Below, piece after piece: positions 3-12,197 of a stretch of 12,197 nt of DNA. The DNA comes from Marinilabiliales bacterium (GTDB lineage Bacteria > Bacteroidota > Bacteroidia > Bacteroidales > BM523). The notes under the pieces are model-generated. The model worked only from the letters and a program-made list of their open reading frames with translations, made no database searches and was not told where the DNA came from. The stretch is from positions 1 through 12,197 of the forward strand of contig PKSZ01000314.1 in assembly GCA_002869425.1 (NCBI GenBank), in the 5' to 3' direction. Position 1 is the first letter of the stretch. Every line of letters starts with the position of its first letter. The translations under genes were made by a program, and so were the position numbers.

Positions 3-1331
3 TCCGATCAACAACCCGAATTTTTCAAAGAGATTAAAAAGAAATATAAGGGTGATTTTGATCTGGCTTTGGAATATCATCAGAAAAGTATGAAGATAAA
101 AGAAGAGGCTGGTGATAAGCTGGGATTGGTTGATACTTATACCACAATGGGATCTTTCTATTATACTTTTAATTATTACAAAGAAGCCCTTGAATATTAT
201 CAGAAAGCCTATTTATTGGCAAATGAGCTAAAAATGCCGGAATCTCAAAAGGCTTCAGCAGAAGGTTTAAGTCAAACATATTCGAAGCTTGGCGATTATA
301 AAAGGGCATACACTTATCAACTTGATTTTATTGCCATTACGGATTCAATTTACAAAAAGGAAAGCCTGAAAAAAACAACCCAGCTTGAAATGCAGCTTGA
401 ATTTGAGAGAAGGGAAAAACAACAGGAGTTTGAGCAGAAACAAAAAGATCTGTTTCAGCAATCCAGATTGAAACGACAAAGGATTATCAACTATTCACTT
501 TTTATTGGCTTAATCTTAATGTTGCTTTTGGCATTTGTTATTTACCGAAGCTATAAATCAAAGTCGGAAACAAATAAGATTCTTGAAAAACAGAAGCATG
601 AAGTAATGAACGAGCGCGATAGGGCAGAACGCTTATTGCTGAATATTCTTCCGGAACGAACGGCCGAAGAGTTAAAGAAATATGGTAGGGCAACATCAAA
701 GCAGTTTGCGCATGCGAGTGTGATGTTTGCAGATTTTGTTGATTTTACCTTATTGTGTGAAGAAATGAATCCGCTTGATCTTATTTATGAACTTGATGCT
801 CATTTTGGAGAGTTCGACAATATTGTAATAGAATCTGTTGGGCATATAGAAAAGGTAAAAACCATTGGCGACTCATATATGTGTGCCGGAGGAATACCTT
901 ATGCAAACAAATCCAACCCAATTGATTTGACAATTTTGGGCCTGCAGTTTCAGAAATATGTCAAAGAGCAAAACGAGTTGAAACGAAAGGATGGCAAACC
1001 GGAATGGAAGTTGCGGCTTGGAATCAACACAGGTCCGTTAATTACAGGTGTGGTAGGAACTATAAAGTTTGGTTATGATATATGGGGAGATACAGTTAAT
1101 GTAGCAAGCAGGATGGAAAGTTCCGGAGAGGCTGACAAAGTAAATGTTAGCGGTACTACTTATGATTATATTAAGGAGTATTTTGATTGCACATACAGAG
1201 GTGAAATCCCTGCAAAAAACAAAGGCAAAATTTCCATGTATTTCGTCAATCGTATTCGTCCGGAATATTCTGAAGATGAGGATGGTATATTTCCAAATGG
1301 GAGGTTAATTTCTATTATAAATTCAATGTAA
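3..1331 (+). CDS. TPR-transmembrane class III adenylate cyclase (5' end outside window)
   Basis: The frame is open from base 3, so the true start lies upstream; a TTG at 69 is only the first in-window start-like codon (numbering here counts it as residue 1). Residues 1-85 are TPR helices, 95-135 a charged coiled stalk, and 139-160 one membrane helix. A signalling-helix linker (LLNILPERTAEELKKYG) precedes a class III nucleotide cyclase domain, about 215-395. Catalytic residues are all visible: metal aspartates D222 (FADF) and D268 (TIGD), adenine-selecting K264 and D337 (YDIWG), and transition-state N344 and R348 (NVASR). Family knowledge therefore predicts ATP to cAMP conversion as a cytoplasmic homodimer, controlled by a periplasmic TPR sensor. 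D225 replaces the glycine usual in the FxDxxGFT motif. The TAA stop overlaps the next gene's ATG by one base, so the two are probably translationally coupled. The input sensed is unknown. Confidence 0.93.
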   Translation, partial: SDQQPEFFKEIKKKYKGDFDLALEYHQKSMKIKEEAGDKLGLVDTYTTMGSFYYTFNYYKEALEYYQKAYLLANELKMPESQKASAEGLSQTYSKLGDYKRAYTYQLDFIAITDSIYKKESLKKTTQLEMQLEFERREKQQEFEQKQKDLFQQSRLKRQRIINYSLFIGLILMLLLAFVIYRSYKSKSETNKILEKQKHEVMNERDRAERLLLNILPERTAEELKKYGRATSKQFAHASVMFADFVDFTLLCEEMNPLDLIYELDAHFGEFDNIVIESVGHIEKVKTIGDSYMCAGGIPYANKSNPIDLTILGLQFQKYVKEQNELKRKDGKPEWKLRLGINTGPLITGVVGTIKFGYDIWGDTVNVASRMESSGEADKVNVSGTTYDYIKEYFDCTYRGEIPAKNKGKISMYFVNRIRPEYSEDEDGIFPNGRLISIINSM

Positions 1332-3568
1332 TGCTTTTATCTAAAGGCCGGCTGCTGATTACTGTGTTTTTAACGATAATCAATTTATGGTCGTTTGCCA
1401 ACAGTATAGATAGCCTTAAATTACAGATGGAAAAAGCAGGTGAGGATTCCAGTAAAATTATATTGCTTAGTAACGCAATCCAGGCCAATTGGCAAAATAC
1501 TGAAATGGTGGATGAAATAGAGCAACTGACAAAGATGTATTTGTCAGATAGTGCAATATCCAGTGCTTGTGATTATTTGTACACACTTGCGTCTTTTTCT
1601 CAAAAAGCCGATAACTACAAGACTTCTATTCGTTATTATAAGTTAGCTGCTGATTGCAATAACAGCAAAGGACAAATAATGCAATATGCCACAATCCTGG
1701 GGTATCTGGGGTATATGTATTATGTTGATGGAAATTTTAACGAAGCATTGAAAGTGGCCCAGAAAAGCCTAAGAATAATGGATAGCCTGGGCTATCCGGA
1801 TAATAGTCCGATGGCATATATAACTGCCGGCTATGTTTGCAGAGATACCAAAAGATTTCCTAAGGCACTGGAGTATTTTGGAAACGCTGAGAGAGTTACC
1901 AAAGAAGGTGTATATTCGCATTTACATCATATAACGCTTAATGAAATAGGGAACGTATATCTGATGATGGAGGAGTATGAGAAAGCGCTAACGTATCAAA
2001 AACGATCAATTGGAATCATAAAAGAGAATGGCAATACAGCCTCTCTGTGTTTTGCCTATAACGATATTGCAATAACATATAAAAGCATGAATTTTATTGA
2101 TACGGCAAAATCATATTATTTTAAAGCATTGAAAGTTTCCAGGGAGATAAATAATGAATATGCACAAGCTGCAAATCTGATCAATATTTCTACCACATAT
2201 TCAGAACTCAATATGCGTGATTCTGCAAAAATATTCTTTAGGCAAACACTTGAAATGTGTGATAGATTGAAATTGAAGTCTCTGTACAAAGATGTATATT
2301 ATGCTTTGGCAGACTTTAATAAACGAAATGGTCAGTATAAGGAGGCATTAGAAAACACACAGTTGTATATGATTTATTATGATTCCTTGCATAATGAAGA
2401 GATAGAAAAACAATTGGGTGAACTTGAAGCCAGGTATGAATCTGAGAAAAAGGAAAAAGAAATACAATTGTTGATGAAAGACCAGCAATTGAAACAGGTA
2501 CTTATTGAAAAACAGGATATTAAGGTTCAGAAACAGCAGAAGGCAATTTATTTTTTCCTAAGTATAATACTTCTCTTCCTAGCATTGGTAATTGTTGTTT
2601 ACAGTTTGTTTAGATCAAAAAAGAAAGCAAATATTAAACTAAGAAAGCAAAAAGAAGAGATTATAGAGAAGAATGAAGAACTTCATCAGCAATCTGAGGA
2701 GATATTAGCCATAAATGAAAAACTAAACAGTATTAATGCGGAATTATTAGAGAAAAACGAAGAAATATGGGATAGTATGAGTTATGCTGAACGTATTCAA
2801 CGATCACTTATCCCTTCTGCAGGAGACCTAAAAGAACTTTTTGCAGTCAGTTTTGTTTTTTATTTGCCCAAGGATATCATTGGGGGGGATTTTTTCTGGC
2901 TTACAAAAATCAACAACTATAAATTTTTGGCATTGGCTGATTGCACAGGACATGGTGTGCCAGGAGCAATAATGAGTGTGTTGGGCACCAGTTTGCTAAA
3001 TGAAATTGTAGTAGAGATGAATGTAGAGGAAACAGATGAAATTTTGAACCATTTGCGAAAAAAAGTGATTTCAAGTCTGGGTTATAAAAAGGGCAAAAAT
3101 GCAGCTAAGGATGGTATGGATATTATGGTATTAAGGGTTGATAATGAGGGTAATATTCAGTGTAGCGGTGCAAATCAACGAATGTACCTCATAAGCAGAG
3201 AGAGGCATGAAGTAGAATGCTTATATGAGCATAAGAATCTGTCCAATCAGCAATCATTTTTTTATGAGTTAAAAACAGATAATATGCCGGTTGGGTTTTA
3301 TTATTTGCCAGAAGAAAAGGGATTTGCAAAGTATCAGTTTAAATATATGAATGGAGATAAAATATTTCTGTTTTCAGATGGTTTTGCTGATCAACTGGGT
3401 GGTGAAAAGGGCAAAAAGTATAAGTATAATAATTTTAGGAAATTAATTCAACAGAGTGCGGTTGAGCCCATTGATAAGCAGGAAGTTTTGTTTAAAACTG
3501 AGCTGGAACGATGGAAAGGAGACAATGAACAGGTTGATGATGTAAGTGTGCTGGGAATTAGACTTTAG
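1331..3568 (+). CDS. TPR-transmembrane SpoIIE/PP2C-type serine phosphatase
   Basis: The 745-residue protein begins at an ATG sharing one base with the upstream TAA. Residues 1-24 look like a signal peptide (ending SFANS). TPR units fill about 75-350, a charged coiled segment 355-400, a membrane helix 405-427, and a second coiled coil 430-480. The SpoIIE (PPM) phosphatase domain is 483-745. Metal-binding acidic residues are intact: D520 (IGGD), D537 (ADCTGHGVPG), the DGMD motif near 594-597, D683 (FSDG) and D736/D737 (VDD). Such domains dephosphorylate phosphoserine/phosphothreonine, classically on STAS anti-anti-sigma proteins in partner-switching systems. No STAS protein or RsbW-like kinase lies in the window, so the substrate is unknown. 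The protein lacks the PAS domain found in its downstream paralogue. Its position suggests output complementary to the preceding cyclase within one operon. Confidence 0.93.
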   Translation: MLLSKGRLLITVFLTIINLWSFANSIDSLKLQMEKAGEDSSKIILLSNAIQANWQNTEMVDEIEQLTKMYLSDSAISSACDYLYTLASFSQKADNYKTSIRYYKLAADCNNSKGQIMQYATILGYLGYMYYVDGNFNEALKVAQKSLRIMDSLGYPDNSPMAYITAGYVCRDTKRFPKALEYFGNAERVTKEGVYSHLHHITLNEIGNVYLMMEEYEKALTYQKRSIGIIKENGNTASLCFAYNDIAITYKSMNFIDTAKSYYFKALKVSREINNEYAQAANLINISTTYSELNMRDSAKIFFRQTLEMCDRLKLKSLYKDVYYALADFNKRNGQYKEALENTQLYMIYYDSLHNEEIEKQLGELEARYESEKKEKEIQLLMKDQQLKQVLIEKQDIKVQKQQKAIYFFLSIILLFLALVIVVYSLFRSKKKANIKLRKQKEEIIEKNEELHQQSEEILAINEKLNSINAELLEKNEEIWDSMSYAERIQRSLIPSAGDLKELFAVSFVFYLPKDIIGGDFFWLTKINNYKFLALADCTGHGVPGAIMSVLGTSLLNEIVVEMNVEETDEILNHLRKKVISSLGYKKGKNAAKDGMDIMVLRVDNEGNIQCSGANQRMYLISRERHEVECLYEHKNLSNQQSFFYELKTDNMPVGFYYLPEEKGFAKYQFKYMNGDKIFLFSDGFADQLGGEKGKKYKYNNFRKLIQQSAVEPIDKQEVLFKTELERWKGDNEQVDDVSVLGIRL

Positions 3569-3590
3569 TAGAATCTGTATTTTGCTGATC

Positions 3591-6206
3591 ATGATATATA
3601 GGGCTTTTATATTGATTATATTATTAGCAGGTTTGAATTTTTCGAATGCAGAAAACTCTTCATCTCTGAAGGAAGATAGTATTGTCAATTTAGAAGCCGA
3701 TGTACATAAGGTTGAAGCACTGCTTAATTTGTCTGCTGAACTTGCTAAAGAAAAGCCGGAAAGGGCAATTTATTATGCGCTGGAAGCAAAACAAATTAGC
3801 ATGAAATTATCCTTCACAAACGGGATCGGTTTGGCTTATAAAGCAATAGCATATGTTCATTATATTCACAATAATTTCCCTCAAGCCATAGAGAATTACA
3901 ATGAAGCTGTCCAATTTTTGAATAAGGGTGAATCTGATATTGTTCTTGCTGAAATTTACGAGAATGTAGGGAATCTCTATTTTCAGCAGTCGGTTTATGA
4001 TCTTGCTATGAAAAAATTCATGCAAAGCATTGCTATCTATAAGGCGCATAATAATATACAAGGCATGGGAAGATTATATCACTTGATTGGAGATATTCAT
4101 ATGATACAGGAAAATTACTCCAATGCTGAAGAGAATTATTTGCATGCTTTGGAAATGAGTGAACAGTCCAATGACTTAGAAAATATTGTATATGTATACT
4201 TAAGTTTGGGTAATTTGAATGAATTGAAGGGAAAGAAGGATATTGCACTACGATATTTTAGTGAAGCAATAACGGTAAGTGAAGAGATGAAATCGGAATT
4301 GCTGTTGGCACAATCCATGATGAAGCTTGCGCATATCTTGTTGAAAGAAGGAAAACCCCAGGAGGCCTTGTCATATTTAAAAAGAGCAGGTGTTGTTTTT
4401 AATGGTCATGAATATACGGAGTTCCTTGCAGAAAATTACCTGGAATTTGGGCGCTATTATCTTCTAAAAGAAGATCTTGATTCAGCAGAATGGTGTCTGT
4501 CGCAAACCAGGAGTATGGCAGATAGTCTTAACATATTGTGGATGCTTAAGGAGTATTATAATGAGCTGAGTAATTATTATTTTTTAAAAGGGTCGTTTAA
4601 AGAATCTTTATTCGCATATAGAAATTATAAGCTTTACAGTGATTCGCTTTATAAGAAAGACTATTTAAAGAGCATCACGCAGTTAGAAATGACTGCTGAG
4701 TTTAATCGGATTGAGAAAAAAAGAATGCTTGATGAGGTAAAAAGAACCGAGATTCAAAAGTATAAAGCACATCAGAAAAATCTATTGATTACAGGATTGG
4801 CTATTCTTGCTTTGGCATTAATGGGGTTTCTATTTTATGTTGTTAGAAACTACAGGAAAAGTCAGTCTTTGGGAAGAAAACTGCAGTTTCAGAAGAAAGA
4901 AATTGAGCAAAAAAACCTTGAATTGGGCAAGAAGGCAGAGCAGATACGAAAGAATGCTGAAGACTTATCATATTTGAATCAGGAGCTGCAAAAATTGTCA
5001 GTTGTTGCAAGCAAAACAGATAATGCAGTTATCATTGCAGATGAAACAGGTACTTTTCTGTGGGTTAATGAAAGTTATTGTAAGCTTTTTGAATGTTCAA
5101 AAGAACAATTACTCAGATCACAGCCAGGGCTTATAGAACCGGGAACTCCAGATGAAATCCGGAAAATAATTGAGCAGTGCAGGGAGCAGAAAACTTCTGC
5201 ATATTACGAACAAAAAAGTTTTAGTAATAAGGGCAGGGAAATTTGGATGCAGGTAACCATTACTCCAGTATTGGATGCCGGAGAAAAGATTGAAAACCTG
5301 ATTGCTGTTTGTACAGATATTAGCGAGCTTAAAAAGGCTGAAAAAGAAATTGTTTCTCAAAGAGATTTATTGTTGCATCAAAAACAGGAGATTACCGATA
5401 GTATTCGTTATGCGCAACGTATACAAACAGCTGTAATACCTAGATTATCCAACATTAAAGAATTTGTTGATGATTATTTTGTTCTTTTCAAACCACGGGA
5501 TATTGTGAGTGGTGATTTTTTCTACACTCAGAAAAAAGAAGATTTGATTATTGTTGGTGTTGCCGATTGCACTGGACATGGAGTGCCGGGAGCTTTTATG
5601 AGTATGTTGGGGATGGCTTTTATCAATGATATTGTGCTTAGGGAAACCAAATTGGATGCAGCATCGCTCCTTGATCGTTTACGATTACGAGTTATTAATG
5701 CACTTCAGCAGAGAGGGGTTCCTGGTGAGCAGAAAGATGGCATGGATGTTAGTTTGCTTTGTTTTAATTACAAATCAGGAGAGGCTACTTGGGCAGGAGC
5801 AAACAATGCAGCATATATGCTTCCGGTGGATGAAAGAAGGTTTTCTGGCGACAGATTCGAGAAATTTGTTATGGATGAGCATATATTATTGGAGTTGAAA
5901 CCTGATAAAATGCCAATTTCTATTTATGATAAGCTGGAGAATTTTTCTGCTCTGGAGATTTCTTTGGAAAAAGGAGATCAAATTTATATGTTTAGTGATG
6001 GTTATCCAGATCAGTTTGGTGGTCCCAAAGGGAAAAAGTTTAAATATCAAGCATTCAGAAAATTAATATGCAAAAACAGCAATATGTCTATGCTTGATCA
6101 GCAGGAATTCCTTGATTTTGAGATCGAACGATGGATGGTTTCTCCCGATGGGAAAAAATCGTATGAACAAATTGATGATATCACCGTACTAGGAATAAAA
6201 TTTTAA
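3591..6206 (+). CDS. TPR-transmembrane-PAS-SpoIIE serine phosphatase
   Basis: I chose the ATG at 3591, 22 nt after the previous stop. It places a clean signal peptide at the N terminus (residues 1-20, ending FSNA); a GTG at 3546 would add 15 residues inside the upstream gene. The product is 871 residues. TPR units occupy about 45-345, a coiled stalk 360-395, a membrane helix 398-417, and a coiled coil 425-468. A PAS domain covers about 470-582 (VIIADETGTFLWVNESYCKL, closing with AVCTDISELKKAE). The SpoIIE phosphatase domain is 605-871, with metal ligands D642 (SGD), D659 (ADCTGHGVPG), DGMD at 716-719, D803 (FSDG) and D862/D863. It is clearly a paralogue of the preceding phosphatase, and the two share the terminal FRKLI...ERW...DD.(V/T)VLGI pattern. 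The PAS could bind a cofactor or ligand; no diagnostic haem or flavin residue was recognised. Confidence 0.93.
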   Translation: MIYRAFILIILLAGLNFSNAENSSSLKEDSIVNLEADVHKVEALLNLSAELAKEKPERAIYYALEAKQISMKLSFTNGIGLAYKAIAYVHYIHNNFPQAIENYNEAVQFLNKGESDIVLAEIYENVGNLYFQQSVYDLAMKKFMQSIAIYKAHNNIQGMGRLYHLIGDIHMIQENYSNAEENYLHALEMSEQSNDLENIVYVYLSLGNLNELKGKKDIALRYFSEAITVSEEMKSELLLAQSMMKLAHILLKEGKPQEALSYLKRAGVVFNGHEYTEFLAENYLEFGRYYLLKEDLDSAEWCLSQTRSMADSLNILWMLKEYYNELSNYYFLKGSFKESLFAYRNYKLYSDSLYKKDYLKSITQLEMTAEFNRIEKKRMLDEVKRTEIQKYKAHQKNLLITGLAILALALMGFLFYVVRNYRKSQSLGRKLQFQKKEIEQKNLELGKKAEQIRKNAEDLSYLNQELQKLSVVASKTDNAVIIADETGTFLWVNESYCKLFECSKEQLLRSQPGLIEPGTPDEIRKIIEQCREQKTSAYYEQKSFSNKGREIWMQVTITPVLDAGEKIENLIAVCTDISELKKAEKEIVSQRDLLLHQKQEITDSIRYAQRIQTAVIPRLSNIKEFVDDYFVLFKPRDIVSGDFFYTQKKEDLIIVGVADCTGHGVPGAFMSMLGMAFINDIVLRETKLDAASLLDRLRLRVINALQQRGVPGEQKDGMDVSLLCFNYKSGEATWAGANNAAYMLPVDERRFSGDRFEKFVMDEHILLELKPDKMPISIYDKLENFSALEISLEKGDQIYMFSDGYPDQFGGPKGKKFKYQAFRKLICKNSNMSMLDQQEFLDFEIERWMVSPDGKKSYEQIDDITVLGIKF

Positions 6207-6210
6207 AATT

Positions 6211-6870
6211 ATGAAGTATTTATTAAAAATGTTATTTGTTGTATTGAGTTTGCAATTTTGTGCTGCTCAGGATACCATTTTCTTACCAACTCCGGATACA
6301 ACAGGAGGAATGCCATTGATGGAGGCTTTAGCAAATCGAAAATCAGGACGAGATTATGCAGATAAGAAATTGGATAAGAAAACTTTATCTAATCTGCTAT
6401 GGGCTGCATTTGGAATTAACAGGCCTGAGTCGGGGAAAAGAACTGCACCCAGTGCTGTTAACTGGCAGGAAATAGATATGTACGTTGCATTGCCCGATGC
6501 TATATACTTGTATTCAGCCACTTTACATGGGTTGATAAAGATTAAGGATGGAGATTACAGGGAAGGCTTTGGAAAACAGCGTTTTGTAAAAGATGCTTCC
6601 ATAATGATCGGTTTTGTATCCGATTATTCAAAAATATCACCCATTGGTGAGAAGAAGAAGCAAACATACTCATATGTTGATACCGGATTTATTAGTCAGA
6701 ATATTTATTTGTTCTGTGCTTCCGAGGGTCTTTCAACTGTTGTTTTGGGTATGATAAACCGTGACAAAATCTCCGAAATTCTGGAGTTGAATAATAACCA
6801 GCATGTAATTTTTACTCAATGTGTGGGATATCCTGCTGTTGAACAGACTTTTCCTTCAATAGAAGAGTAG
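6211..6870 (+). CDS. Exported nitroreductase-like flavoprotein (SagB/ThcOx type)
   Basis: The 219-residue protein starts 4 nt after the preceding stop, so it is almost certainly in the same transcript. Residues 1-19 form a signal peptide (hydrophobic, ending CAA-Q). The mature part shows nitroreductase-fold signatures: LMEALANRKSGRDY (33-49), whose basic residues R43/R47 fit the FMN phosphate-binding loop; an LLWAAFGINRP helix-turn (62-72) followed by RTAPSAVN, as in SagB-type proteins; a GFISQNIYLFCASEGLSTV helix (159-177); and a closing GYP (206-208). Family members are FMN-dependent oxidoreductases acting as dimers. The physiological substrate cannot be read from sequence. An exported member is odd because FMN must be loaded outside, or before export. 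The last 15 nt overlap the convergent radical SAM gene. Confidence 0.85.
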   Translation: MKYLLKMLFVVLSLQFCAAQDTIFLPTPDTTGGMPLMEALANRKSGRDYADKKLDKKTLSNLLWAAFGINRPESGKRTAPSAVNWQEIDMYVALPDAIYLYSATLHGLIKIKDGDYREGFGKQRFVKDASIMIGFVSDYSKISPIGEKKKQTYSYVDTGFISQNIYLFCASEGLSTVVLGMINRDKISEILELNNNQHVIFTQCVGYPAVEQTFPSIEE

Positions 6871-7989
6871 CTTTTCTTCAGAAAGGTATTTGTCGCATAG
6901 TTTTTTGGCTTTTTCTGTGAATTTTTCTATTAGTAAATTATATTCCGGAATGGTAAGATATTCAATAGCTTTGGGTAATTCCTGAATTGTAAAACCTGCA
7001 TACTGAAGATCTTTATAGGGTTTGTTAATCATTTGCAGGAAGTAAGCATTGTTTAGAAATCTTTCTGATATTTTATAGTTTGTCTTTCTGAAATCATTGG
7101 GAATGAATCTCTTAATCCGATATGCCATTTTATATTTCTTACACAAATCTATAAAATAGCTGTTTTTTTCTGCATGGTATTCCATATTGGCAGTATACGA
7201 GCCTTTGTATGTTTGATTTTTATCGGAGAATCCATAAATTTTATGGTAAATCACGGGAATGTCTCCATGAATTGTTTTGATTTCACGAAAATATCTTTTG
7301 GCTTGCTTGTCTCTTAGGGTAAGACCTCCAAAAAGAATATAGTCTGCATTCGCTTCTTTGGCGCTTGCAACCATTAATTCCATATCTTGATTACTGTCTG
7401 AAATACCTGGAAGAGCAGGCATAAAGAGAATGCCACATTGAATGGAACTGTTTTGCTTGATGGTTTGGATACATTGAAATCTCTCAGAAGAAAGGGACGC
7501 AGAGGGTTCTATTTTTTGCGACAGTTCATCATCTGTTGTCGTAATGCTCAATGAAACATTACAATAGCCGGATTCTTCTTTAATTTTTTGCAGAAGATCC
7601 ATATCTCTAATTATGAGGTTTGATTTGCTCACAACCTGAACCGGAAATCTGTATTTGAGAATTACTTTTAGTAAGGATTGGGTTGTTTTATAATCTTTTT
7701 CTGCTTGTTGATATGGATCACAAGTACCACCAACCCCAATGATATCTGGCTTTAATCGCCTGGCTTTTGAAAGCCTTTTGTCTAGTAATAATGCTGCATT
7801 TTTTTTAACGTAAATGGCATTTTCAAAATCTTCTGGCAAATGGTATTTGCTGCTTCTGGAATCGCAATATATACAATTGAATTCGCAGCCATTATAAGGA
7901 TTGATACCATAACGATTCCAAAACCAGTTGTCAGCTGCTTTTCTTACATTCAGTATGCTTTTGTATTCTTTTTCAGTATGTTTTGCCAC
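6856..7989 (-). CDS. SplB-like radical SAM protein
   Basis: A GTG at 7987-7989 gives 377 residues and lies 10 nt beyond the upstream stop; I prefer it because the product then starts close to the KSILN motif. A TTG at 8025 would add 12 residues and overlap the upstream gene. The cluster motif is intact: C35, C39 and C42 (GCEFNCIYCDSR), preceded by an NPYNGC element typical of the SPL (spore photoproduct lyase)-like/Rv2578c radical SAM group. A GGTCDPYQQAEKDY segment (about 87-100) matches the conserved 'G..TD.YQP.E' block of that group. Downstream are the TIM-barrel strands PVQVVSKS, VSLSITT and GILFMPALPGISD. There is no visible SPASM domain or C-terminal cysteine cluster. Family knowledge supports a [4Fe-4S]/SAM radical enzyme in the cytoplasm. 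DNA photolesion repair is not implied, since most members of this group are uncharacterised. It follows the repeat-protein gene on the same strand, probably in one transcript. Confidence 0.85.
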   Translation of the reverse strand: MAKHTEKEYKSILNVRKAADNWFWNRYGINPYNGCEFNCIYCDSRSSKYHLPEDFENAIYVKKNAALLLDKRLSKARRLKPDIIGVGGTCDPYQQAEKDYKTTQSLLKVILKYRFPVQVVSKSNLIIRDMDLLQKIKEESGYCNVSLSITTTDDELSQKIEPSASLSSERFQCIQTIKQNSSIQCGILFMPALPGISDSNQDMELMVASAKEANADYILFGGLTLRDKQAKRYFREIKTIHGDIPVIYHKIYGFSDKNQTYKGSYTANMEYHAEKNSYFIDLCKKYKMAYRIKRFIPNDFRKTNYKISERFLNNAYFLQMINKPYKDLQYAGFTIQELPKAIEYLTIPEYNLLIEKFTEKAKKLCDKYLSEEKLLFY

Positions 7990-7999
7990 AATTATTTGT

Positions 8000-9718
8000 C
8001 TAGTGTTCCCACATCTTTCTTCCAAAAAGACCTATTTCAGGTGCTGCTTTTTGTTTTTTTGGTCTGAATAACCTGTATCTGGTTAAAAATCCAAAGAATC
8101 CTTTTTTGTGTTTCTTGTTTGGTTTGGAATATACTTTTTTACCTCTTCTTACCTTAATGGTTGAGTAATTGTAATTGGATTTTTTTGAAACATGTAGTTT
8201 TACACTGTTCTTTGCGTATGCATATTTGGCTTTACTTCTGCCAAAATTGCTTTTATTTCTTCTGGATTGATTAAAGGTCTGTGGAATGTGCTTTCTTTCG
8301 TTTCTTCTCTTAAATGAAGAATAATAATATACTTTTCCCTCCTTGCCCCTAACTTTTTTGTTTACAGTGTTAACACTTGATTTAGACGGCTTTCTGGTTA
8401 TTCCACTGGACACAGAATACATTTTCTTTCCTTTTCTTACATTGTAGTTTACTGTAGCAACCGTTGTTTTACTTGTGTTTCTTTGGAACGAATTGGACAC
8501 AGAATATATTTTTCCTCCTTTTTTTCGATTGTAATTAACAGTGGATACTTGTGTATTCCATATGTTTCCGCGCCTTCCGGATGAAACAGAGAATACTTTC
8601 CCATCTTTATTTACTTTTCGGTTAAAGGTTGAAACACCTGTATTCCATGGATTGTTTGTTCTTCCACCTGAGTAGGAGTAAGTTTTTCCTTTCCTGTCTC
8701 TCTTCATGTTTACTGTTGGTGCTCCGGTTCTCCATGGATTTCCAGTACGACCACCACTATAAGAGAAAACTTTTCCGTTTTTGCTTGTTTTTTTGTTTAC
8801 TGTGGCTGCACCTGTTTTCCACGGATTATTTGTTCTTCCACCGGAAAAACTGAATGTTTTTCCTTTTCTGCTTCTATTCATATTTACAGTAGAAACACCT
8901 GTTCCCCAGGGGTTGTTGGTTCTCCCTCCTGAAAAGCTAAAAGATTTACCGTCTTTGCTAATTTTTTTATTAAATGTTCTTACGCCGGTTTTCCAGGGAT
9001 TAGAAGTTCCTCCGGAGCTTCTGCTAAATACTTTCTCTCCTCTTCTTTTTTTGCTATTAACGGTACCGGCTCCGGTCTTCCATGGATTGTTGGTTTTTCC
9101 TCCTGAGAATGAATAGAATTTTTCGCCTTTTTGTCGCTTGCTGTTGAATGTATTCACCCTTGTTTTCCATGGATTGTTAGTCTTCCCTCCCGAAAAAGAA
9201 AATACTTTTCCTTCTTTGGATTGCTTTGAGTTAACAGTTTTTACATTTCTGTTCCATGGATTTTTTGTTTTCCCTCCAGAGTAAGAGTAGGTTTTGTTTT
9301 TTCTCATTCTCTTGCTGTTTACTGTTGCAACACTGCCTTTTGAGCTTTTTTTGAAAAGGTTGGATGAGGAGGAGAAAACCTTTCCTTTGGAAGAATATTT
9401 TTTATTAACAGACTTTGCTTTTCCTTTGTTTTTGAACGGATTACCTGATTTGCTTGCGCTATATGTTTTGTTTCCCTTTGTAACTTTTAGAGAATAGCTT
9501 TTGGGGATAACTTTTCTTGATTTGTTTTTTAAACCAGGAGTGGCGGAGTATGTTTTTCCTTTAATAGATTTAGATTCGGAATATGTTTTAACTTCTGTCG
9601 TATTTTCACTCCATGATTTGTTTTTTTTCCCAATATTGAACCACCTATTTTGGCCATTCGCACAATAAGTAGCGAATGTTAACAGAAAAGAAGTTGTTAT
9701 AATGGTTCTGAAATTCAA
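8000..9718 (-). CDS. Secreted, highly basic 29-residue-repeat protein of unknown function
   Basis: I do not recognise this family. The 572-residue product starts at a TTG (9716-9718); a stop lies in frame five codons upstream and no ATG is available. Residues 1-22 look like a Sec signal peptide. The cysteine at 19 lies in TYC, a poor lipobox. Residues 55-431 are thirteen exact-length 29-residue units, followed by a 30-residue unit (432-461) and a degenerate one (462-491). The consensus is K-x-[FY]-S-x-S-G-G-[KR]-T-x-N-P-W, then T-G-x-x-T-[VF]-N and a basic turn ending K-x-G. The tail (492-572) is non-repetitive, with KKGFFGF and a terminal PEIGLFGRKMWEH. I count about 138 Lys/Arg against 13 Asp/Glu, and no cysteine outside the signal peptide. 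A surface or matrix protein binding acidic polymers is possible but is only inference. It is the first gene of a minus-strand pair with the radical SAM gene. Confidence 0.85.
   Translation of the reverse strand: MNFRTIITTSFLLTFATYCANGQNRWFNIGKKNKSWSENTTEVKTYSESKSIKGKTYSATPGLKNKSRKVIPKSYSLKVTKGNKTYSASKSGNPFKNKGKAKSVNKKYSSKGKVFSSSSNLFKKSSKGSVATVNSKRMRKNKTYSYSGGKTKNPWNRNVKTVNSKQSKEGKVFSFSGGKTNNPWKTRVNTFNSKRQKGEKFYSFSGGKTNNPWKTGAGTVNSKKRRGEKVFSRSSGGTSNPWKTGVRTFNKKISKDGKSFSFSGGRTNNPWGTGVSTVNMNRSRKGKTFSFSGGRTNNPWKTGAATVNKKTSKNGKVFSYSGGRTGNPWRTGAPTVNMKRDRKGKTYSYSGGRTNNPWNTGVSTFNRKVNKDGKVFSVSSGRRGNIWNTQVSTVNYNRKKGGKIYSVSNSFQRNTSKTTVATVNYNVRKGKKMYSVSSGITRKPSKSSVNTVNKKVRGKEGKVYYYSSFKRRNERKHIPQTFNQSRRNKSNFGRSKAKYAYAKNSVKLHVSKKSNYNYSTIKVRRGKKVYSKPNKKHKKGFFGFLTRYRLFRPKKQKAAPEIGLFGRKMWEH
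8246..9556 (-). repeat. Tandem 87-bp coding repeat array (29-residue units)
   Basis: Fifteen consecutive units within the secreted basic protein: thirteen of exactly 87 bp, one of 90 bp and a final degenerate unit. The best-conserved block is protein residues 142-402 (bases 8513-9295), nine units with SGG and mostly NPW motifs. At DNA level the copies have diverged at synonymous sites. For example, the Pro codon of NPW is CCA, CCG or CCC in different units, while the amino acids stay the same. The outer units are more diverged in protein as well, keeping mainly the K-x-[FY]-S start and the T-x-N element. Confidence 0.9.
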
Positions 9719-9906
9719 CAGATTATAGTTTTAAGCGTTTATACGAATATGTTTTGCTTAAGATACAGTCAAATGATAAATAATGCTTCAATAATTGATA
9801 TTTGTCCAATCTGTTTGAAAACAATTGTTTTCAGCTTGAAAATGTCAGGCAGCAAATATTATATTATTTGTATCTTTAAAAGCTTGTATATTGTAAATCA
9901 AGTTTG
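9719..9906. promoter_or_regulatory. Divergent intergenic region with candidate promoters
   Basis: These 188 bp separate the start codons of the minus-strand repeat-protein gene and the plus-strand hybrid kinase gene, so both promoters should lie here. The sequence is A/T-rich. For the kinase gene, TATCTTTA at 9871-9878 matches the Bacteroidota -7 element TAnnTTTG at all but the last base and would leave a leader of about 25 nt. No well-placed TTTG -33 element accompanies it. For the minus strand the best match (TATCTTAA) has two mismatches, lying some 20-30 bp upstream of the TTG start. The promoter calls are weak; the main structured element is the palindrome listed separately. Confidence 0.35.
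9816..9833. promoter_or_regulatory. 18-bp perfect palindrome, candidate operator
   Basis: TGAAAACAATTGTTTTCA reads identically on both strands. It sits between two divergent genes, about 75 bp upstream of the kinase start and about 100 bp upstream of the repeat-protein start. It partly overlaps a direct repeat: CTGTTTGAAAA (9811-9821) and CAGCTTGAAAA (9832-9842), matching at 9 of 11 positions and offset by 21 bp, two helical turns. This arrangement suits binding of a dimeric regulator. The centre is A/T-rich, so some symmetry could arise by chance, and no regulator gene is adjacent. Confidence 0.35.
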
Positions 9907-12197
9907 ATGAAGAAATATCTAATAATGATATTGTTGGGAGTGTTTTGTCTGGGTACAGGTCAAGGTTTGTTGGCCGAGAATCTGGAGAAAAAAAATATTC
10001 CTGTTGATTCCATGTACATATTGGCTGATAGTCTAAAATATGTAAATCCTGAATTGGCTATACAATATGCAGAAGAATTTCTTAATGAGTCATTGAAAGG
10101 TGATGATAATCAGTCGACTATCGACTCATATTTTTTATTAGCTAAAATCTTTTTTAATCTGGGGAATGCTGAAATGGCAATAGAAAATGCCAAGTTGGGT
10201 TTGTATACAGCAAATATTGCAGATGATGATGATAATAAGATTTTAGCGCTGAATTTATTGGCAAATATTTATGGTTCCATTGGAAAGTATCATAAGGCAT
10301 TGAAGCAACTTTTCAAGTCTGTGGACTTATCGCAGGAATTAGGTAAGGATAAGATGTATGCCCGATCGCTTAATAATATTGGAATTGTATATGGAAATCT
10401 TGAGAATAACGAAAGGGCCCTGGAATATTTTAATAAATCATTAACGATATTTCATTTGAATTCGGATAAGCAGGGTTTAGCGATGGTTTTAAATAATGTT
10501 GGCAATGTATATACAGGAGTAGAGGATTATGATGAGGCACAGTACTATTTTAAACAAGCATTGCATTATGCAAAACAAGTAGGAGATAAGGTTAGAATAG
10601 CCGAATCTTATCATAACCTGGGAAGGGTATATACCTGGAATCATCAGTATTCAGAAGCAGAAAAGTGTTTTCAGAAGTCGTTAGAAATCAAACGCGAACA
10701 GAATAACCTTAGTGATATTATTTTGGCTTATCTGGCTTTTGCAGATTTGTATATTGAGATGGGGAATAAAGATCTTGCAATCGCCTATCTTGAACAAAGT
10801 CATAAGATTGCTGAGAAGGAAGGACTGGTTCGGGAGCTAAGAGATGTTTACAGATTATATTCAGGTTTCTATGAGAAAAATAAAGAATACAACAAGGCTC
10901 TATCATATTATAAGCTTTATCAATCATTTAGAGATTCTGTTTTTAATCATGAAAATTCCAAAATGATAGCGGATCTTCAAATTTCACATGAGATTAGTCA
11001 GCGTGAAAAGGAAAATGAATTGTTGCGTTCCAATGTAAAATTGCAGAAACTTAAATTGGAAAAGCTTCAAAATCTCAGAAATTCAGCAATTGTAATCATT
11101 GCACTTTTTTTTATCGTAATCCTGATTTTAATCAATAGGTGGATGATTAAAAAGAAAGCATCCCGCAAAGTAAATGAAGTAAATGATGAATTAAAGCAAT
11201 TGAATGAAAATCTGGAAAAACTTGTTGATCAGCGAACAAAGGAGCTTAAGGAAGAGGTTGCATTCAGAAAGGATGCAGAATACAAATTATTAATAGCCGT
11301 TGAAAAAGCAGAGGAAGCCAATAGGCTTAAAGATGCATTTTTGGCAAATATGAGTCATGAAATTCGCACACCTATGAATGGTATTTTAGGCTTCATTGAT
11401 TTACTGAAAGAACAAAATCTTGACAAGGAAACACAACAGGAATACTTGCAATTAATTTCAAATAGCGGAAATCATTTGTTAAGCATTATCAATGATATTA
11501 TTGATATCTCAAAGATAGAAGCTGATCAGCTTAAAATCAATCAGGAATATTTTTCACTTAATGAACTACTTACTGAAATATATAACTTGTTCGCTTCTGA
11601 AGTAAAAGTATTAAACAAAGCAATTACAATAAAAAAAGAATTTGCCCTAAGTGATAATGAATCTTATATTCAGTCAGACACAGTAAGAATACGGCAGGTA
11701 ATGTCGAATTTAATCAACAACGCATTGAAGTTTACCAATAATGGAGAAATTTCTTTTGGTTACAAGATCAAAGATCAAAATATTGAGTTTTTTGTGAAAG
11801 ATACAGGTGTGGGTATTGATCTGGCAAAACAAGAGATTATTTTTGATAGATTCAGACAGGCAGACAATTCTACAACCCGCGAGTATGGTGGAACCGGACT
11901 TGGTTTGTCGATTTCTAAGGGGATTGTTGATCTTATGGGTGGAAACTTATGGTTGAACTCAAAACCAGGTAAAGGTTCGGTGTTTTTCTTTAGCATTCCA
12001 TATGTAAAAGCAGTTCCTTTTGAAAAAGAGGATGAGAAAGAGAAGTTAATGTCAAGCATTGAAGGAAACAAAATATTGTTGGTTGAAGATGACTTGGTTA
12101 GTAAAAAGTATTTTGAAATACTGATTGGAAAATACCTCGACGGAGAAATCACTCCCAGCGAGCAACAGATCCTGGAGACCGAACTCAACAAAGATCC
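9907..12197 (+). CDS. TPR-transmembrane hybrid histidine kinase (3' end outside window, tail discordant)
   Basis: The ATG at 9907 opens a frame running to the window edge (763 complete codons). Residues 1-23 are a signal peptide (ending LLA-EN). TPR units occupy about 68-340, a coiled stalk 345-392, a membrane helix 393-410, and a coiled coil 412-475. The HisKA domain carries H484 (NMSHEIRTPMNG). The HATPase domain has N-box N601/N605, G1 at 632-636 (DTGVG) and G2 at 661-667 (GGTGLGL), so it should be an active kinase. A receiver domain begins at 722 (KILLVEDD, acidic pocket D728/D729), but its expected continuation is not seen. After about residue 738 the protein reads like a different family (KYLDGEITPSEQQ), and the DNA becomes GC-rich. 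The phosphoacceptor aspartate is not reached. The intact part is a typical Bacteroidota TPR hybrid kinase; the gene's true 3' end should be considered unknown. Confidence 0.9.
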   Translation, partial: MKKYLIMILLGVFCLGTGQGLLAENLEKKNIPVDSMYILADSLKYVNPELAIQYAEEFLNESLKGDDNQSTIDSYFLLAKIFFNLGNAEMAIENAKLGLYTANIADDDDNKILALNLLANIYGSIGKYHKALKQLFKSVDLSQELGKDKMYARSLNNIGIVYGNLENNERALEYFNKSLTIFHLNSDKQGLAMVLNNVGNVYTGVEDYDEAQYYFKQALHYAKQVGDKVRIAESYHNLGRVYTWNHQYSEAEKCFQKSLEIKREQNNLSDIILAYLAFADLYIEMGNKDLAIAYLEQSHKIAEKEGLVRELRDVYRLYSGFYEKNKEYNKALSYYKLYQSFRDSVFNHENSKMIADLQISHEISQREKENELLRSNVKLQKLKLEKLQNLRNSAIVIIALFFIVILILINRWMIKKKASRKVNEVNDELKQLNENLEKLVDQRTKELKEEVAFRKDAEYKLLIAVEKAEEANRLKDAFLANMSHEIRTPMNGILGFIDLLKEQNLDKETQQEYLQLISNSGNHLLSIINDIIDISKIEADQLKINQEYFSLNELLTEIYNLFASEVKVLNKAITIKKEFALSDNESYIQSDTVRIRQVMSNLINNALKFTNNGEISFGYKIKDQNIEFFVKDTGVGIDLAKQEIIFDRFRQADNSTTREYGGTGLGLSISKGIVDLMGGNLWLNSKPGKGSVFFFSIPYVKAVPFEKEDEKEKLMSSIEGNKILLVEDDLVSKKYFEILIGKYLDGEITPSEQQILETELNKD
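12120..12197 (+). other. Compositionally discordant segment at the window end, possible chimeric join
   Basis: Bases 12134-12197 contain 34 G/C of 64 (53%), while 12071-12133 contain 16 of 63 (25%). Codons switch to CTC, GAC, ATC, CCC, AGC, CTG and ACC, which are uncommon earlier in the gene. The encoded stretch from about residue 739 (LIGKYLDGEITPSEQQ, ending LETELNKDP) resembles the N-terminal helices of anti-sigma or FecR-type proteins (pattern LI-x-KYLDGE, then acidic helix, then DP) and not a receiver domain. The join probably falls between about 12115 and 12134. It could be an assembly chimera, a recombination junction, or a real but unusual receiver. Confidence 0.5.

Follow-up and report, generated by a model that had tools for sequence, protein, structure and literature searches.

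The curli proteins CsgA and CsgB are generally described as exported proteins made of short tandem repeats in which Ser, Gly, Asn and aromatic residues occur, and mussel foot proteins and diatom silaffins as secreted tandem repeat proteins rich in Lys, Ser, Tyr and Gly. Mussel foot proteins and silaffins act by multivalent charge and aromatic contacts. The protein family analysed here, found through one gene of a Marinilabiliales bacterium, resembles both groups in these respects. It differs from curli proteins, as these are usually described, in its period and charge; the Curlin repeat model of Pfam gave no match at E ≤1 in the protein of the window, and no curli genes were recognised by eye among the open reading frames (ORFs) around the four family copies. 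Mussel foot proteins and silaffins are eukaryotic and carry modified residues, unlike the repeat family, and the likeness is drawn with no claim of homology. Sequence comparison indicates that the gene product belongs to a family of exported, cationic repeat proteins that is small, has no name and is known to date from two families within a single Bacteroidota order. Searches of open-access literature met no account of a repeat protein like this, and one may exist.

Architecture of the repeat protein

The window, meaning the whole stretch of DNA analysed (12,197 nucleotides), makes up an entire contig (C421) of a genome of 3.92 Mb in 751 contigs, judged to be 83.2% complete. The repeat gene and its nearest downstream neighbour are laid out as follows:

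8000..9718, minus strand: repeat gene, coding for the secreted basic protein (572 aa) from a TTG at 9718 to a TAG stop
9650..9718, minus strand: type I signal peptide (by eye), roughly residues 1-23, cut likely near ANGQ/NRW
9473..9559, minus strand: degenerate unit in register, residues 54-82
8342..9472, minus strand: thirteen uninterrupted 29-residue units, residues 83-459
8252..8338, minus strand: last degenerate unit, residues 461-489, with a one-residue insertion before it
8003..8248, minus strand: C-terminal part, residues 491-572, with a GLFGRKMW motif common to the relatives
6856..7989, minus strand: downstream radical SAM gene, GTG start at 7989, TTG at 8025 as alternative start

Our analysis confirmed the initial annotation in the coordinates and strand of the gene, which has 572 codons, and in its thirteen uninterrupted units of 29 residues, which are flanked by one degenerate unit on either side to give about fifteen. 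Identity at a lag of 29 residues was 0.401, against a maximum of 0.146 over lags of 15-59 in 1000 shuffles. The core unit has a consensus of approximately GK[TV][YF]S[YF]SGG[RK]TNNPWKTG[VA]xTVNxKxxKx. These units had been called exact, which is true of the period of 29 but not of the sequence, as four of the 29 columns (K2, S5, S7 and N23) are fixed in all thirteen units. An Asn-Pro-Trp turn had likewise been described as invariant, which overstated its conservation: Asn13 occurs in ten of the thirteen units, Pro14 and Trp15 in nine each and the complete motif in eight. At the DNA level Tandem Repeats Finder counted 2.9 copies, a low number that agrees with the differing synonymous codons between units.

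The strong positive charge noted earlier was reproduced (138 Lys and Arg residues to 13 Asp and Glu), with a pI of 11.8 and a net charge of +124 at pH 7 over 549 residues. The mature part is free of Cys as previously stated, since the sole Cys, residue 19, lies within the signal peptide. The signal peptide itself was borne out by eye, as a direct reading of the sequence, and residues 3-22 form a helix in the AlphaFold2 model. No lipobox was seen by eye before this Cys, as ATYC does not qualify.

Homologues and their distribution

A two-unit profile (A3) built from the window's own units was run on the window genome and 392 others. Among these 392 the three best E-values (1.3e-4 to 0.0017) belonged to three genomes from a different family within the order (f65), and the fourth-placed match (E 0.0023) looks unrelated. 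Matches at E ≤0.1 were obtained in 37 genomes other than the window's own; ORFs were inspected in eight of these, three of which contained relatives and five apparently unrelated sequences by eye (L012, L013, L018, L019, L023). The relatives occur in Bacteroidetes bacterium GWA2_31_9 (MEND01000137.1; G169), GWF2_33_38 (MEOF01000054.1; G065) and a third f65 genome (G262), and their ORFs measure 495 aa in G169, 531 aa in G065 and 466 aa (with a masked stretch inside) in G262.

Comparison of the window protein's C-terminal 82 residues, which lie beyond the final unit, with each relative gave scores reached by 0 of 500 shuffles (z 14.9, 12.1 and 13.7), which argues for homology beyond composition. 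The features in common there are NYS, a V.R....YS..N stretch and P..GLFG.K.W, and the final 38 residues alone also scored above all 500 shuffles against each relative (z 6.6-8.6). For the N-terminal part 0 of 500 shuffles reached the score against G169 and G262, and 6 of 500 did so against G065, where support is thus weak. On these alignments the window protein and the f65 proteins are judged to be homologues and not look-alikes.

An export signal, tandem units of 29-32 residues beginning G-K-x-[YF]-S-x-S and a C-terminal GLFG-x-K-[ML]-W motif are present in all four proteins. Units of the window protein have 29 residues. Those of the relatives usually have 31 (range 29-32), with SINR-type segments mostly replacing the TNNPWKTG/NPW turn; this turn is a feature of the window genome's copy, and Trp content is 2.2% in the window protein versus 0.2% in G169 and G065. 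Composition was measured in the window, G169 and G065 proteins, the G262 protein with its masked stretch being left out. The pI and net charge of the two relatives are 12.1 and +111 (G169) and 11.6 and +109 (G065), and all three proteins lack Cys beyond the signal sequence or lipobox. In a three-protein alignment the invariant columns include no Asp, Glu or His and one Cys, in the signal sequence. A lipobox (LISC/LVSC) ending at residue 18 was seen by eye in G169 and G262, whose proteins are probably lipid-anchored, and none was seen by eye in G065; the window and G065 proteins look freely secreted.

All four family genes begin with TTG (L028:10643, L029:8520, L030:8987 and window 9718). In none of the four does an ATG or GTG stand in frame from the upstream stop to the midpoint of the signal sequence, a stretch where rarer starts such as ATT are possible. 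This conserved TTG start may limit expression; passages on start-codon use in one study (PMC6847099) have no bearing on it.

A profile of three members, the window included (A5), found the family in all three f65 genomes and in the window's own, making four of the 339 genomes sampled from the order. It found no member in G001, the one other genome of the window's own family within a set of 60 related genomes. Among 395 sampled genomes of the class no further member was found, and with the repeat profile A6 the single match at E ≤0.001 in 395 sampled genomes of the phylum was the own genome, although the class and phylum samples returned no f65 genomes either, the first-look step limiting sensitivity. 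The sole class match besides the own genome, in G689 (E 0.00164), looks unrelated and was rejected as a short repetitive segment that is interrupted by a stop and open in several frames. This repeated stretch of DNA (L039:1473-1865) adjoins a secreted protein gene. The family is rare in the sampled genomes.

Protein searches gave weak negatives: none of 7991 candidates scored for the whole window protein reached E ≤0.01, none of 7997 scored for the G065 relative matched (with the query's own published protein missing from the results), and none of seven candidates for residues 505-572 reached E ≤1. No relatives appeared in tblastn searches of plasmids and phages, in viral contigs searched with A5 or in genome contigs searched with the single window protein. 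Within 60 related genomes, own included, four besides the own matched the window protein at E ≤1. The best of these (G029) is broken by two stops and continues in frame into the beginning of an integrase-like ORF, and was set aside as a chance match; the other three had E-values of 0.08-0.21. A DNA pattern of the GLFGxKxW type gave 11 matches in 10 of the 395 class genomes, against 15 for the reversed control pattern, and the window's own is the one match placed where a long basic ORF ends.

Relation to known families and predicted structure

The initial annotation had left the family unrecognised, and database searches agree with this. All Pfam matches of the window protein stay below their cut-offs (the best is FTP, E 0.018; one four-unit block reaches E 0.0012 and 19.1 bits against a cut-off of 21), and NCBIfam, PHROGs and the PDB sequences yielded no match. 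In the relatives, the Nebulin repeat (PF00880) matched four of 15 repeat blocks (best E 5.6e-6), and the G169 protein scored 20.1 bits against it, equal to the curated cut-off, with no single stretch passing alone; the window protein has no Nebulin match at E ≤1. Nebulin is a helical, actin-binding protein, and the likeness is taken for a chance match of the Lys/Tyr rhythm.

The register of the units had been proposed to suit a stack of beta-hairpins or a solenoid, with strands at K-x-[FY]-S-x-S and T-V-N and a basic turn. Mean pLDDT was 45.1 in an AlphaFold2 run on the window protein by itself and 37.3 in a second run given 15 rows of four-unit blocks. The first strand is upheld in several units in both runs; elsewhere the runs disagree, as one has the T-V-N strand and the other a strand over VNxKxxK, the proposed basic turn. 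At such low pLDDT the models give no evidence for a fold, are equally compatible with disorder, and neither show a solenoid nor establish disorder.

These observations bear on a self-assembling structural protein, in which the units would be beta-hairpins stacking into a fibre or solenoid as in curli, the charge serving for solubility or matrix cross-linking. The strict period, the alternating residues in the K-x-[YF]-S-x-S and T-V-N segments and the strand recurring in both runs are what such a polymer could be expected to display. However, model confidence is low and the runs differ outside the K-x-[YF]-S-x-S segment, a Curlin match is lacking at E ≤1 in the window protein, the period varies among relatives (29 and 31), and a charge of +124 over 549 residues opposes close stacking unless a counter-ion is supplied. 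We regard assembly of this type as unlikely.

Selection on the repeated peptide

Synonymous (pS) and non-synonymous (pN) differences were compared between units of the window gene. Mean pS was 0.72 and mean pN 0.31 over the 28 pairs of eight core units, with synonymous sites near saturation, and pN was lower than pS in 70 of the 78 pairs formed by all thirteen units. The near saturation of synonymous sites with the peptide kept indicates that the window array is of long standing and did not expand recently. Between the G169 and G262 genes dN/dS was 0.11 (bootstrap 0.08-0.15; 439 codons; dS 1.14), in an alignment whose mid-section pairs units that are possibly non-orthologous. Two genes neighbouring the repeat gene in the same genome pair gave similar values (0.07 and 0.12). 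The repeat peptide is under purifying selection, and the earlier statements that synonymous codons differ while the motif is kept, and that the peptide is selected and not newly expanded, are upheld.

Alternatively, the array might be drifting low-complexity sequence that has no function. Tandem repeats do expand readily, and the G065 array carries a recent two-unit duplication, in which units 4/6 and 5/7 of the eight compared share 98 and 95% DNA identity. The low dN/dS, the excess of pS over pN in most unit pairs and a C-terminus conserved across four genomes all run against drift, which we find very hard to credit.

Genomic context

The radical SAM gene starts ten bases past the stop of the repeat gene on the same strand and has a Radical_SAM Pfam match (E 1.6e-10). 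Such an arrangement would be compatible with an enzyme that modifies the repeated Lys, Tyr or Trp residues ahead of export, a situation known from modified repeat peptides. The best NCBIfam matches of this enzyme nevertheless fall short of their cut-offs; they are the PA0069 and Rv2578c types, a group that we take to be photolyase-like. Neither a radical SAM gene nor a TPR histidine kinase was seen by eye beside the three relatives, and a search at 1e-10 with the window's radical SAM gene matched nothing in G169 and G065 and gave one match in G262, on another contig. The gene is probably a chance neighbour, and we give modification by its product very little credence. Elsewhere in G262 (L029:11907-16876), genes for a radical-SAM-like protein, an outer-membrane-receptor-like protein and an ABC exporter with a peptidase-like N-terminus stand in a row and have by eye the look of a modified-peptide cassette.

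On its other side the repeat gene is divergent from a TPR histidine kinase gene across 185 bases. Its neighbours in G169 and G262 are a TPR-SpoIIE gene and a gene for a 269-aa membrane protein, and those in G065 are DNA polymerase I and a TonB-type receptor (names by eye); neighbours thus differ among the four family copies and a conserved neighbourhood is absent. A window TPR-SpoIIE gene finds the relatives' neighbour as its second (G169) and third (G262) match, and a reverse search from the relatives' TPR-SpoIIE placed the window's copy sixth of nine. Conserved synteny of TPR-SpoIIE was rejected on this reverse rank and on the 54-112 matches per f65 genome.

The 12-kb contig carries four TPR-containing signalling genes (window 3-6206 and 9904-12195), one cyclase-like and two SpoIIE-phosphatase-like by eye and one histidine kinase by Pfam. 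The second SpoIIE-type protein of the window has 54 to 167 matches per genome at 1e-10 in four genomes, a large expansion.

A promoter scan found 9 sigma-70-like sites against 5.3 expected (sd 2.5), and a terminator scan one terminator-like site, within the array. No site resembling the consensus TAnnTTTG lies in the 200 bases upstream of the repeat gene in the window, and no Rfam family was found.

A candidate cationic polymer of the cell envelope

We infer a location outside the cell for the family, at the cell envelope. The best reading, to which we assign a probability of roughly 0.5, is that these proteins would be cationic polymers of the envelope that bind polyanions. It is favoured by the charge and pI, the unit rhythm with its K-x-[YF]-S-x-S core, the C-terminal homology, the dN/dS of 0.11 and the lipobox. 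The array might act as a multivalent ligand: with Lys/Arg beside an aromatic-Ser-x-Ser in each unit, the chain could grip polyanions many times over. Candidate partners at a Gram-negative envelope would be LPS phosphates, acidic exopolysaccharide and extracellular DNA, and the GLFGxKxW tail may be a docking or sorting element. Many weak binding contacts would be the simplest use of a Cys-free mature chain that has about fifteen basic-aromatic units and no invariant acidic or His residues.

Several observations weaken this reading. No conserved neighbour hinting at matrix, LPS or polysaccharide synthesis was seen by eye at the four loci, which counts against it, and the mixed anchoring, with a lipobox in two members and none in two, is unlike a fixed surface device. 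The low pLDDT, the ambiguity between surface and periplasm and the weak N-terminal support against G065 weaken it further.

That ambiguity touches on a periplasmic envelope stabiliser, i.e. a disordered cationic tether from the outer membrane to peptidoglycan or inner-leaflet polyanions. A chain rich in Lys/Arg, Ser, Asn and Gly with low model confidence, and the lipobox of G169 and G262, would be in keeping with a tether; however, a peptidoglycan-binding domain is absent from the Pfam matches, and the window and G065 proteins have no lipobox by eye. We consider a tether quite unlikely. By analogy with mussel foot proteins or silaffins, the secreted 29/31-residue Lys/aromatic/Ser unit could also define a new class of bacterial structural polymer that forms a coat or glue by condensing with polyanions of the same cell, the TTG start keeping dosage tight and GLFGxKxW serving as a docking tag, a speculative proposal that is distinctly improbable.

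The analysis adds to the uncharacterised surface proteins of Bacteroidota an unnamed, lineage-restricted family under selection, defined by its repeat unit, its tail motif and its start codon, whose relatives were missed by the ordinary searches tried and reached by a two-unit profile. If polyanion binding is true, the family would offer a modular protein of simple design with which to test how charge and aromatic spacing govern matrix cohesion.
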